The position numbers and the translations under genes were made by a program. Under the pieces are notes generated by a model. The model saw nothing but the letters and a program-made list of their open reading frames with translations. It had not been told where the DNA came from and ran no database searches. Below, piece after piece: positions 34,707 to 38,176 of a stretch of DNA of 64,000 bases. The first letter of the stretch is position 1. Every line of letters starts with the position of its first letter. Source of the DNA: Mesorhizobium sp. M4B.F.Ca.ET.058.02.1.1 (GTDB lineage Bacteria; Pseudomonadota; Alphaproteobacteria; Rhizobiales; Rhizobiaceae); assembly GCF_003952505.1 (NCBI RefSeq), contig NZ_CP034450.1, positions 5,601,001-5,665,000 on the forward strand, written 5' to 3'.

Positions 34707-36281
34707 ATGAGCAGCGTCGGCGCCGCCTTTCGGCTCGCACGGGCCGGCTGGGTGCTGGTCCGCGAGGGCGTCGTCTCGGCGTTGCCGGGCGAGGAGCTCG
34801 ACGGCCTGCCGAAGTTCGGCTGGCGGCTGGCCCGCCTGTTCACTCGCCGCCGCGCGCTGGCCTACAAGCGTGGCGACCGGCTGGCCAAGGCAGTGGTGCG
34901 GCTCGGACCCTCCTACGTCAAGCTCGGCCAGTTCCTGGCGACACGGCCCGATGTCGTCGGCAATGACATGGCGCTCGACCTCGCTTTGCTGCAGGACAAG
35001 ATGCATACGTTCCCGCAGGCCGAGGCGATCGCCGCCATCGAGGCCTCGCTCGGGCGCAAGGTCGGCGATCTCTACGCCAGCTTCGACGGCGCCGTCGCGG
35101 CCGCCTCGATCGCCCAGGTGCACAGTGCCGAGACCGTGAACGATGGGATTGCCTCCCGGGTGGCGGTGAAGGTAATCCGGCCGGGCGTGCGCCGCCGCTT
35201 CTTCCACGACCTCGAAAGCTATTTCCTGGCCGCCCGTTTGCAGGAAAAATACATCCCCTCGTCGCGCCGGTTGCGGCCGGTCCAAGTGACCGAGACGCTG
35301 GCGCAGACAACCAAGATCGAGATGGATCTGAGGCTCGAGGCAGCGGCGCTCTCCGAGCTCGGCGAGAATACCAAGGACGATCCGGGCTTCCGCGTGCCCT
35401 CGGTCGACTGGGAGCGGACCGGGCGCGACGTGCTGACCATGGAATGGGTCGACGGCGTCAAGATGAACGACATTGCCGGTCTTGTGGAGGCAGGCCACGA
35501 CCTCAGGGCGATCGCCGCCAACCTCATCCAGTCGTTCCTGCGCCATACTTTGCGCGATGGCTTCTTCCATGCCGACATGCATCCGGGCAATCTGTTCGTC
35601 GAGGCTAACGGCACCATCGTCGCCGTCGATCTCGGCATTGCCGGCCGGCTAGGCAAAAAGGAGCGCCGGTTCCTGGCCGAAATCCTCTACGGCTTCATCG
35701 TGCGCGATTACCAGCGCGTCGCCGAGGTGCATTTCGAGGCCGGCTATGTGCCGCGCCAGCACAATGTCTCGGCCTTCGCGCAGGCGATCCGCGCCATCGG
35801 CGAGCCGATCCACGGCCAGCCGGCGGAAACCATCTCGATGGCCAAGCTTTTGACGCTGCTGTTCGAGGTCACCGAATTGTTCGACATGGCGACCCGTCCA
35901 GAACTGATCCTGCTGCAGAAGACCATGGTGGTGGTCGAAGGCGTTGCCCGCACGCTCGATCCGGCCTTCAACATGTGGAAGACGTCCGAGCCGGTGGTCG
36001 GCGACTGGATCGCCGGCAATCTCGGCCCACGCGGTCTTCTGGTCGATGCGCGCGACGGCACCAGGGCCTTGCTGGCGTTGGCCCGCCAGGCGCCGGACAT
36101 CGCCGCCCGCACCGAGCGGCTGTCGCGCGAGATCGACCTGATGGCCGAGCACGGGCTGCGCTTCGACGAGGCGACGGCACGCGCCATCGGCAAGGCCGAG
36201 GCGCGCCATACCCGCTCCGGTCGCGTGGCCCTGTGGGTGATCGCACTGACGCTGGTTTATATCATGTGGAAAATCTTGTGA
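34707..36281 (+). CDS. ubiB: UbiB atypical kinase/ATPase for ubiquinone synthesis
   Basis: The 524-aa protein belongs to the UbiB/ABC1/ADCK family, ATPases needed for coenzyme Q assembly. Visible motifs are the KxGQ signature (KLGQFLATRPD, about residues 72-82), the Ala-rich nucleotide loop AASIAQVHSA (about 132-141), the lysine motif VAVKVIRPG, a catalytic-loop HADMHPGNLFV and the metal motif VDLGIAGR. The C-terminus ends in a hydrophobic anchor (LWVIALTLVYIMW). It follows ubiE directly. Confidence 0.96.
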   Translation: MSSVGAAFRLARAGWVLVREGVVSALPGEELDGLPKFGWRLARLFTRRRALAYKRGDRLAKAVVRLGPSYVKLGQFLATRPDVVGNDMALDLALLQDKMHTFPQAEAIAAIEASLGRKVGDLYASFDGAVAAASIAQVHSAETVNDGIASRVAVKVIRPGVRRRFFHDLESYFLAARLQEKYIPSSRRLRPVQVTETLAQTTKIEMDLRLEAAALSELGENTKDDPGFRVPSVDWERTGRDVLTMEWVDGVKMNDIAGLVEAGHDLRAIAANLIQSFLRHTLRDGFFHADMHPGNLFVEANGTIVAVDLGIAGRLGKKERRFLAEILYGFIVRDYQRVAEVHFEAGYVPRQHNVSAFAQAIRAIGEPIHGQPAETISMAKLLTLLFEVTELFDMATRPELILLQKTMVVVEGVARTLDPAFNMWKTSEPVVGDWIAGNLGPRGLLVDARDGTRALLALARQAPDIAARTERLSREIDLMAEHGLRFDEATARAIGKAEARHTRSGRVALWVIALTLVYIMWKIL

Positions 36282-36361
36282 TTGCCGAGTGGTCGGTCAA
36301 ACAGGAACGGACTACGTTGGCGGCATGGACACTTTGCCGATCGTAGAGGTGAGGCCAAACT

Positions 36362-36613
36362 ATGGCTATGGGTATTGAAGGCGAGGCTCGCCGCGAGGTG
36401 CCTGCCGCTTTCAAGATGAAGCTTGAGCACTCACAGCCAAAGCTTTGGACAGGGATCGTGATCACCGAGGGTCACGAATTTGAGGGTCGCCGCGTTACCC
36501 TAACCCAACGACATCTCGAGTGGTCAGGTTTCGTCAACATTGTAGTTGAGGCGAGTCGACCGACGAGCGGCTCTGGGCAGTTAGCAGGCCTTCCTCCGGC
36601 TCAAGAAACCTGA
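36362..36613 (+). CDS. Hypothetical protein, 83 aa
   Basis: Small ORF between ubiB and coaBC starting MAMGIEGEARREVPAAFKMK. A strong GAGGTGAGG sequence sits seven bases before the ATG at 36362. The composition is mixed, with KLWTGIVITEGHEFEGRRVTL suggesting beta strands. Codon use is less GC-rich than its neighbours. No family recognised. It could be a recent or chance ORF; the ribosome site is the main support. Confidence 0.45.
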   Translation: MAMGIEGEARREVPAAFKMKLEHSQPKLWTGIVITEGHEFEGRRVTLTQRHLEWSGFVNIVVEASRPTSGSGQLAGLPPAQET

Positions 36614-36642
36614 ACCGACTCGCCATCGTTTTGCGGTCACGC

Positions 36643-36700
36643 TTGCTCACAATTGATTGCATTGCTATCATTGCACTCGTGACGACGTGACGAGTGCAAT
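36643..36700 (+). promoter_or_regulatory. Predicted coaBC promoter and 31-bp palindromic operator
   Basis: A -35 TTGCTC (36643-36648) and -10 TATCAT (36666-36671) are separated by 17 bases, predicting a start near 36678. A palindrome overlaps the -10/start region and ends three bases before the ATG. Its perfect 11-bp arms are ATTGCACTCGT (36670-36680) and ACGAGTGCAAT (36690-36700), with an inner ACG-A-CGT that is also symmetric; only one base pair of the 31 is mismatched. It could be a protein operator or an RNA hairpin over the ribosome-binding region. Confidence 0.7.
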
Positions 36701-36703
36701 CAC

Positions 36704-38176
36704 ATGGCCAGCATCACCATCCGCAACCTCGACGATGATGTGAAGGACCTGCTGCGGCAGCTCGCGGCGGAGAATGGCTGCTCGATGGAAGAGCAGGCGC
36801 GGCTGATGATCCGGGCGGCGGTCGAGGGTCGGGCAGGGCAGGCCGACCGCATCGAGCAGATCGAGAACACGCTGCGCACCCTGGCTGGTTCAAACCAGCA
36901 GGTGACTTCGGCTGTCGCTGTTTCCAGCAAGCCATCGCCGCGTGGCTCGTTGTCGGGCAAACGCATCCTGCTCATCATCGGCGGCGGCATCGCCGCCTAC
37001 AAGGCGCTCGACCTGATCCGTCGGTTGCGCGAGCGCGGTGCGGCGGTGCGCGTAGTGATGACATCGGCCGCGCAGGAATTCGTCACCACGCTGTCGGTCG
37101 GGGCGCTTTCGGCTGACCATGTCTTTACCGAATTGTTCGACCGCAATGACGAGCACGATGTCGGCCATATCAGGCTGTCGCGCGAGGCCGACCTGCTGGT
37201 GGTGGCGCCGGCGACCGCCGATCTGATGGCGAAGCTTGCCAACGGCCATGCCAATGATCTCGCCTCGACGGTGCTTCTCGCCACCGACAAGAAGGTGCTG
37301 CTGGCGCCGGCGATGAACCCGAAAATGTGGTCGCACACTGCCACGCGCCGCAACCGGGCGACGCTCGCCAAGGACGGCATTGCCTTTGCCGGGCCGGCCA
37401 AGGGCGAGATGGCTGAAAGCAACGAGGCGGGCGAGGGCCGCATGGCCGAACCGCTGGAGATCGTGGCGGCCATCGAGGCGATGCTCGACAGCAGGCCGAA
37501 GCCGCTGGCCGGCCGCAGGATCATCGTCACGTCGGGGCCGACGCATGAGCCGATCGATCCGGTGCGCTATATCGCCAACCGCTCGTCGGGCAAGCAGGGC
37601 CATGCGATCGCGGCGGCGCTGGCGAGGCTGGGCGCCGACGTCCGGCTGGTCTCCGGCCCGGTCAGCATTGCCGATCCGACCGGTGTCGTGACGACGCATG
37701 TCGAGACCGCTGGCGAGATGAAAGCGGCGGTTGAAGCGCTTCTTCCTGCAGACGCTGGGGTGTTCGTCGCGGCCGTCGCCGACTGGCGCACCGCCAATTC
37801 GGCCGGCGAGAAAATCAAGAAGGTGGCGGGCGAGGGGCCGCCGGCGCTGCAGATGGTCGAAAACCCAGATATTCTGGCCGGCGTCGGCCATCATCAGAAA
37901 CGCCCCGGGCTGGTCGTCGGTTTTGCCGCCGAGACACAGGATCTGATCCGCAATGCCGAGGCCAAGCTGAAGAAGAAAGGCGCCGATTTCATCGTCGCCA
38001 ACGATGTCTCGCATGAAAGCGGTGTCGGCCCCACCGGCGTCATGGGCGGCGACCGCAACAAGGTGCGCATCGTCTCCAAGACCGGCGTCGAGGAATGGCC
38101 GGAACTGAGCAAGGACGAGGTGGCGGCGCGGCTCGCCACGCTGATTGCAGAGCGCCTGAAAACCATCGTGGTCTGA
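36704..38176 (+). CDS. coaBC: CoaBC with N-terminal FitA-like ribbon-helix-helix domain
   Basis: Bifunctional phosphopantothenate-cysteine ligase/phosphopantothenoylcysteine decarboxylase, two steps of coenzyme A synthesis. The protein is 490 aa instead of the usual 400 or so. Residues 1-42 (MASITIRNLDDDVKDLLRQL and on) match the FitA-type ribbon-helix-helix fold of antitoxins. Residues 46-82 are a helical/Ser-rich linker. The FMN-dependent CoaC part (about 86-265) has GGGIAAYK, catalytic His155 (GHIRLS), APATADLMAKLANG and PAMNPKMW (202-209). The CoaB part (about 270-490) has VTSGPTHEPIDPVRYI, NRSSGKQG and AAVADWR. The flap around 234-247 reads AESNEAGEGRM and lacks the Cys found in E. coli Dfp (ACGDIGPGRM). 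The frame is continuous. No PIN-domain toxin gene is adjacent. Confidence 0.93.
   Translation: MASITIRNLDDDVKDLLRQLAAENGCSMEEQARLMIRAAVEGRAGQADRIEQIENTLRTLAGSNQQVTSAVAVSSKPSPRGSLSGKRILLIIGGGIAAYKALDLIRRLRERGAAVRVVMTSAAQEFVTTLSVGALSADHVFTELFDRNDEHDVGHIRLSREADLLVVAPATADLMAKLANGHANDLASTVLLATDKKVLLAPAMNPKMWSHTATRRNRATLAKDGIAFAGPAKGEMAESNEAGEGRMAEPLEIVAAIEAMLDSRPKPLAGRRIIVTSGPTHEPIDPVRYIANRSSGKQGHAIAAALARLGADVRLVSGPVSIADPTGVVTTHVETAGEMKAAVEALLPADAGVFVAAVADWRTANSAGEKIKKVAGEGPPALQMVENPDILAGVGHHQKRPGLVVGFAAETQDLIRNAEAKLKKKGADFIVANDVSHESGVGPTGVMGGDRNKVRIVSKTGVEEWPELSKDEVAARLATLIAERLKTIVV

Follow-up and report, generated by a model that had tools for sequence, protein, structure and literature searches.

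The coaBC gene of the window, that is, of the whole analysed stretch of 64,000 nucleotides from Mesorhizobium sp. M4B.F.Ca.ET.058.02.1.1, is fused in frame to a DNA-binding domain of the FitA antitoxin family, and the comparison with relatives points to a toxin-antitoxin operon upstream of coaBC, its toxin since lost, as the origin of that domain. We give a probability of roughly 0.78 to the whole account, namely that toxin loss made a FitAB/VapBC-type antitoxin into an autoregulatory, PutA-like domain of CoaBC, and did so more than once within the Rhizobiaceae. The account is drawn from sequence comparison, in which we find the fusion itself, half-sites common to fusions and modules, modules and toxin remnants at the ubiB-coaBC junction, whole-antitoxin fusions that differ from one another, and selection on the ribbon-helix-helix (RHH) domain.

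The fused gene and its protein

One unbroken open reading frame of 490 codons, opening with ATG, occupies positions 36704–38176 of the forward strand, on which all genes and domains named below for the window also lie. Its product can be divided into three parts. First, a FitA-like RHH domain covers residues 2–40 (36707–36823), where PF22513 matches with an E value of 7e-15 (55 bits against a cut-off of 27). Second, a weakly constrained linker extends over residues 43–81 (36830–36946), with a helix at 49–61 predicted at low confidence. Third, residues 84–479 (36953–38140) match the CoaBC equivalog TIGR00521 with 400 bits against a cut-off of 220, and PF02441 and PF04127 show both the CoaC flavoprotein domain and the CoaB ligase domain to be present. 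The continuous 490-codon frame of the original prediction, with an RHH domain joined to a full CoaBC, is therefore borne out, and RHH domain and metabolic enzyme share one chain as in PutA-like enzymes. A profile made from 18 RHH domains matches the FitA structures 2h1o (1.2e-5) and 2bsq (2.5e-5), its other matches being designed repeat proteins and weaker ones.

In its two catalytic domains, its TIGR00521 score far above the cut-off and its solved homologue, 6tgv, the CoaBC part is like ordinary CoaBC (Dfp), from which the window differs by the RHH domain and an operator-like site. The protein has a single match in its own genome (6.46 Mb, a single contig), and because this is the only copy found, CoaBC activity is predicted; the single copy argues for a working enzyme. 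An AlphaFold model from 24 sequences (mean pLDDT 72.6; RHH blocks 47–70; residues 41–79 below 50) places RHH helices at residues 11–24 and 28–43 ahead of a folded CoaBC, at moderate confidence, and leaves the RHH strand unformed, an RHH dimer being beyond the reach of a single-chain model.

A translation start inside the gene near residue 82, a possibility raised together with the original prediction, was rejected as a general account. Codon 83 is TTG in the window, yet among 49 members of this fusion class TTG stands there in just two (the window being one), the others having ATG (1), CTG (1), CTC or CTT (44) and TTT (1).

The cysteine of the CoaC substrate-clamp motif has a catalytic role. 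In the window this region (37380–37450) has the motif GEMAESNEAGEGRM, which holds no cysteine. Of 40 loci from outside the family, 31 have a cysteine in that motif; in all 210 loci of the window's family that were examined, the 14 residues preceding GRM/GRL contain none.

Toxin-antitoxin modules at the ubiB-coaBC junction

The upstream neighbour that defines the junction is ubiB (34707–36281), an ABC1/UbiB-type kinase gene matching PF03109 with an E value of 2e-69. A similar ubiB gene end is found upstream in seven of the eight relatives read, with L108 as the exception in the stretch shown. In a whole-protein search, some relatives have a separate RHH match about 600–900 bp upstream of an ordinary coaBC, and in such loci, when read, ubiB is followed in the same direction by genes for a FitA-like antitoxin and a PIN toxin and then by coaBC. 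We typed 170 loci, which are partly redundant (145 unique). As a result, 109 are fused, 39 have antitoxin, PIN toxin and coaBC as separate genes, 9 have an antitoxin without a match to our first PIN model, 9 have neither, 2 are fused with a further antitoxin-toxin pair upstream, and 2 retain a toxin remnant only. One of the 39, L105, is a decayed remnant in which both the antitoxin and the toxin genes are truncated. Eight of the nine antitoxin-only loci were translated, and seven of them have PIN-like neighbours of a second kind, and the two of these that were tested match Pfam PIN. The eighth, L153, is a decayed module in which only a truncated antitoxin is left; by eye, an open reading frame between this truncated antitoxin and coaBC resembles an Xre-type regulator.

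The interval between the end of the toxin gene and the closest start codon in frame with coaBC is −4 to 26 bp in all 38 loci measured, and coaBC therefore looks like the next gene in an antitoxin-toxin operon. Toxin remnants were found at L081, L167, L215, L229 and L249, where no RHH match accompanies them, and at L105, where the RHH match is truncated. A further 40 Rhizobiaceae loci, a non-random set picked among the listed matches that do not align from residue 1, comprise 15 with antitoxin and PIN toxin, 8 with an antitoxin without a PIN-model match, 3 with toxin remnants and 14 with neither. The statement of the original prediction that a PIN toxin is absent thus needs dividing: it is true at the window locus, where no PIN match lies upstream and the nearest one in the genome is about 32 kb off, but PIN genes occupy the same junction in many relatives.

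Several loci (L025, L028, L067, L069, L070, L075, L080, L084, L142–L144 and L212) have two successive FitA-like antitoxins upstream of coaBC, and in L025 the second alone of the two is fused to CoaBC. At L132 and L133 an antitoxin-PIN pair precedes a coaBC that itself carries the RHH fusion, which looks like a continued arrival of modules at the junction. The window's own genome has a FitA-like RHH beside a PIN domain at C1:1927267–1927889, probably a separate module.

Fusions of whole or nearly whole antitoxins

Some fusions preserve more of the antitoxin than the window protein does. In five of them the similarity to a split antitoxin includes the C-terminal tail: L025 is identical to L067 at 67 of 79 residues (one gap of 441 bp), L141 to L147 at 61 of 82 (one gap of 439 bp), L157 to L156 at 66 of 92, L111 to L072 at 45 of 74, and L108 to L164 at 49 of 80. 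Two more have lost the tail end, namely L029 (57 of 68 identical to L082, with gaps of 54 and 411 bp) and L068 (49 of 69, likewise to L082). In these alignments the toxin gene is missing from the fusions, although the DNA alignment over it is fragmentary in L068, L108, L111 and L157. In L025 the antitoxin is kept to its last codons and then passes straight into the CoaBC start. The Met at the native CoaBC start position is kept in L025, L029, L068, L111 and L157 and absent in L141 and L108. Since the antitoxins are whole or nearly so and the junctions differ, toxin deletion is the simplest account of these fusions, which does not bear on the oldest ones.

The window protein, in contrast, lacks the toxin-contacting tail that L025, L108, L111, L141 and L157 possess, and nothing in it can be aligned with the tail of split antitoxins past residue 60. 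For its fusion class the best-scoring split antitoxin is identical at only 28 of 58 positions, and no direct toxin-loss intermediate was found among the loci compared; because of this low identity, the window fusion is probably old or from another source.

Distribution of the fusion and the order of events

Among the loci examined, fusions were seen only in the window's GTDB family, the Rhizobiaceae. A match is present in 389 genomes, and at least 30 of the best matches listed come from genera other than the window's and align as a single piece that begins at residue 1 or 2; all 30 of these loci proved fused once fetched. Further fusions occur among the non-aligning ones, and counts taken from HSP ranges are undercounts, as L157–L163 and L166 (HSP start at residue 64–82) were also fused once fetched. 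We claim no prevalence, since the lists hold best matches only. In 40 loci of families other than the Rhizobiaceae, a non-random set of 16 chosen for long open frames, 4 top matches and 20 other-family matches of the whole-protein search, the stretch ahead of coaBC (up to 1600 bp) gave no RHH or PIN match. The lack of a frame break was dropped as evidence, because loci had been classed as fused by their open frame.

On a tree of the CoaBC core, the fused and non-fused states require 19 changes, at least 10 of them forced by starred branches, against a mean of 40.7 after shuffling. The tree has 136 rows, thinned from 145 unique cores at 97% identity within type, with L105 entered as being without RHH; it gives the number of changes rather than gain against loss, with 54 of its 133 inner branches open. 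Fused loci are intermixed with antitoxin-toxin loci within Mesorhizobium, and part of the changes may therefore reflect alleles swapped between fused and modular loci at the site flanked by ubiB and coaBC.

The order of events could also be the reverse, with an RHH-CoaBC autoregulator ancestral in the Rhizobiaceae and mobile antitoxin-toxin modules later invading or replacing its RHH part, attracted by related sequence or recombining with it. Fusions of the old type (MASITIRNLD...) are indeed spread across many genera, the pairs at L132 and L133 stand upstream of fusions of just this type, and antitoxin-toxin loci are scattered within the Mesorhizobium fusion clade. Against this order speak the five fusions with a C-terminal tail and the two nearly whole ones, whose junctions differ near the CoaBC start and for which toxin deletion is simplest, as well as the six loci with toxin remnants; both observations are silent on the oldest fusions. 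We regard the reverse order as unlikely, if by no means far-fetched, and prefer the derivation of the fusions from modules by toxin loss.

The upstream region and a candidate operator

Between ubiB and the promoter the window has an extra stretch (36282–36640, about 350 bp), which a DNA search of 37 genomes found in its own genome only; the 36 without a match include 22 of the same genus, and ubiB ends near the promoter in relatives. An 83-codon open reading frame without a Pfam match lies within this stretch. Downstream of it we infer a promoter, since a sigma-70 consensus scan scored none above its cut-off in the start region and did not pick up the −35-like TTGCTC (36643–36648, +), whose TTG is kept among relatives. 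The operator-like sequence TGATTGCATTGCTATCATTGC (36654–36674, +) consists of the half-sites TGATTGCA (36654–36661) and TGCTATCA (36663–36670) with one base between them, and overlaps the putative −10 element TATCAT (36666–36671). Beside the start codon, GAGTGCAATCA (36692–36702, +) contains a third half-site, TGCAATCA (36695–36702), and its GAG may double as a ribosome-binding site. The fused gene thus has inverted half-sites in its own promoter region, of the same family as those of the modules.

The original prediction had placed the operator elsewhere, in a palindrome over the start (ATTGCACTCGT / ACGAGTGCAAT, 36670–36700), and had named conservation of the palindrome in upstream alignments as its check. 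The palindrome is exact in its arms (36670–36680 and 36690–36700), pairs at 14 of 15 positions when extended, and exceeds chance: perfect arms of at least 11 bases appeared in 1 of 1000 dinucleotide shuffles (100 bp, same composition), the imperfect score was reached in 0 of 1000, and 4 of 1278 overlapping 100-bp tiles of the window score as high, tiles covering the palindrome itself counted. The arms are private, however. Among 49 distinct upstream regions of window-type fusions (window included), the left 11-base arm occurs in one and the right arm in two, only the outer ends of the palindrome being conserved, and we therefore rejected the exact palindrome as the operator. What is conserved instead is the neighbouring TGATTGCATTGCTATCATTGC, mostly outside the palindrome and exact in 35 of the 49 regions, together with TGCAATCA (46 of 49) and GAGTGCAATCA (34 of 49).

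This 21-base site is also specific. In the window's own genome TGATTGCATTGCTATCATTGC occurs once at up to three mismatches, at the coaBC start. At up to two mismatches it occurs once per genome in 23 of 61 genomes, each time just upstream of a fused coaBC, and a reversed-pattern control gave no match in the 61. These 23 belong to the 24 genomes with a window-type fusion, as assigned by our reading of search matches and fetched loci; the site is found in none of the 37 others. Thirteen of these share the window's genus and either have a different architecture or gave no coaBC match, and 24 belong to other families. The one exception, G018, has a diverged version upstream of its fusion (L002). 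The idea of self-repression through the RHH domain thus gains comparative support from strong purifying selection on the domain and from an operator-like site that is conserved where the gene begins, has no second copy in the genome at the mismatches allowed, and is confined, among the genomes searched, to those with this fusion type; the palindrome once named for it has to be given up.

RHH repressors such as PutA can have neighbouring genes as targets, and the RHH domain might in the same way control one or more other genes and not coaBC itself; this is highly improbable, as the own genome has a single copy of the 21-base site (up to three mismatches) and each of 22 relatives likewise has one (up to two). 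A wider regulon was rejected, as a second site is absent from the own genome at up to three mismatches.

Half-sites common to fusions and modules

In 92 of 95 fused loci, 36 of 41 split loci and 2 of 7 loci with neither (7 distinct of 9), the 80 bp upstream contain the half-site motif TGA[CT][ACT]GCA, which is absent from all 93 control stretches taken 320–400 bp upstream of fused starts. As the motif was derived from the same data, later-typed loci served as an out-of-sample test: 22 of 23 split loci have it, as against none of the 14 Rhizobiaceae loci with neither gene and one of the 40 loci from outside the family. Within these 80 bp it is missing from three fused loci (L025, L108 and L138) and five split ones (L105, L150, L152, L156 and L170). 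In L025 the fused gene is the second of its operon, and half-sites lie upstream of the first gene, the first antitoxin of the two-antitoxin module. Paired half-sites still stand upstream of the toxin remnants L215 and L229 and of the decayed L153, a single one remains at L081, and L105, L167 and L249 have none upstream.

Residue 3 of the RHH domain (Ser or Thr) tracks TGAT or TGAC half-sites, with counts of 84/0 vs 0/5 in fused loci and 2/2 vs 1/27 in split loci. A mean of 2.4 out of 3 independent pairs (by starred branches) supports the relation between residue 3 and half-site position 4, and a sign test is not significant. With just three such pairs, and descent explaining the pattern equally well, we dropped this covariation as proof of a base contact.

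Selection on the FitA-like domain

Pooled dN/dS among window-type fusions is 0.055 for the RHH domain and 0.427 for the linker, in the 34 of 49 class members that have an 81-residue N-terminus, and 0.103 for the enzyme core in 28 of those. Purifying selection acts more strongly on the RHH domain than on the enzyme, and the low value for the RHH indicates that the domain is translated and maintained.

The fused domain might serve as an antitoxin in trans, with CoaBC as its carrier, restraining PIN toxins encoded elsewhere. Five PIN-domain matches are present in the window's own genome, and some young fusions keep tails resembling module antitoxins. We nevertheless give this reading very little credence, because the likeness of the window protein to split antitoxins stops by residue 60, its linker has a dN/dS of 0.43, and at least one of the five PIN domains adjoins another FitA-like gene, that at C1:1927267–1927889. 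The least credible reading is that the N-terminal extension is a passive module relic without present function. Extensions of this kind are what remains when a toxin gene is lost in frame, and the linker is under loose constraint. Against this reading speak an RHH dN/dS below that of the enzyme, the site conserved exactly in 35 of 49 upstream regions and within two mismatches in 23 of 24 genomes, and the apparent rarity of decayed old fusions in the sample: among non-fused loci (fused ones being open by definition), L105 is the single case in which part of an RHH domain persists within 300 bp of coaBC.

Proposed origin and mechanism

On our preferred reading, derivation by toxin loss, a FitAB/VapBC-type operon would have settled between ubiB and coaBC in the Rhizobiaceae and become the transcription unit leading into coaBC, which presupposes co-transcription. 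Loss of the toxin gene would have followed in several lineages, with the DNA-binding part of the antitoxin becoming an in-frame extension of CoaBC; the fusion in the window, which is older, may have taken the same route. CoaBC is itself oligomeric. RHH domains of neighbouring subunits would pair and bind the retained half-sites over the −10 element and the start codon. As CoaBC accumulates, it would in this way shut its own promoter, much as PutA does. The CoaBC oligomer would here replace the toxin as the scaffold for cooperative DNA binding.

More tentatively, and with less than even confidence, we suggest that modules repeatedly captured the transcription of an essential CoA gene and so became hard to lose. 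After decay of the toxin, the antitoxin might survive in fused form, with the CoaBC oligomer as its scaffold, as a metabolic thermostat sensing the level of CoaBC or ligands of the CoA pathway.

Relation to known systems

The RHH domain belongs to the same family as that of FitAB of Neisseria gonorrhoeae, a VapBC-type pair of PIN toxin and RHH antitoxin, with ASVVIRNL in FitA corresponding to ASITIRNL in the window protein, and FitAB-type modules occupy the same junction in relatives of the window genome. FitAB is described as binding its operator, which covers 36 bp ahead of the fitAB genes themselves, through the RHH motifs (PMC3384007, PMC3920265), and the toxin stabilises the antitoxin assembly and thereby promotes DNA binding (PMC3920265). 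Unlike FitAB, the window locus is without a toxin, and the C-terminal part of the antitoxin is replaced by a CoA-synthesis enzyme. In trifunctional PutA, as described in PMC5293562, an RHH domain on a metabolic enzyme represses the enzyme's own genes. RHH-CoaBC is like PutA, which combines RHH with proline dehydrogenase and P5C dehydrogenase, in that an N-terminal RHH domain sits on a flavin-dependent bifunctional metabolic enzyme. It differs in that enzyme and pathway are unrelated, the RHH domain belongs to the antitoxin family and has relatives in modules at this junction, and repression and a substrate switch are hypothetical in RHH-CoaBC.

An RHH domain on an enzyme as its own repressor is thus already known from PutA; an antitoxin-type RHH domain on CoaBC and a module at this junction appear to be new with respect to the open-licence literature. 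Open-licence PMC full texts gave no link of CoaBC with RHH domains or antitoxins and no module at the ubiB-coaBC junction, and domain databases may list the architecture. The part of PMC2701414 consulted has no mention of COG0452 or pantothen.

Significance for the Rhizobiaceae

The fate of chromosomal toxin-antitoxin modules, and whether antitoxins become ordinary regulators, is debated. Here a natural series is available within one family, including loci with no module, whole modules, remnants, whole-antitoxin fusions that differ in their breakpoints, and old, streamlined fusions whose operator-like site is conserved; we consider this an unusually complete evolutionary series. Through the ubiB-coaBC junction, the domestication of modules can be tested directly in laboratory rhizobia. 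The finding also suggests a transcriptional control of coaBC that is unreported in the open-licence literature searched, and a selfish module seems to have been converted, apparently more than once, into a metabolic self-regulator.
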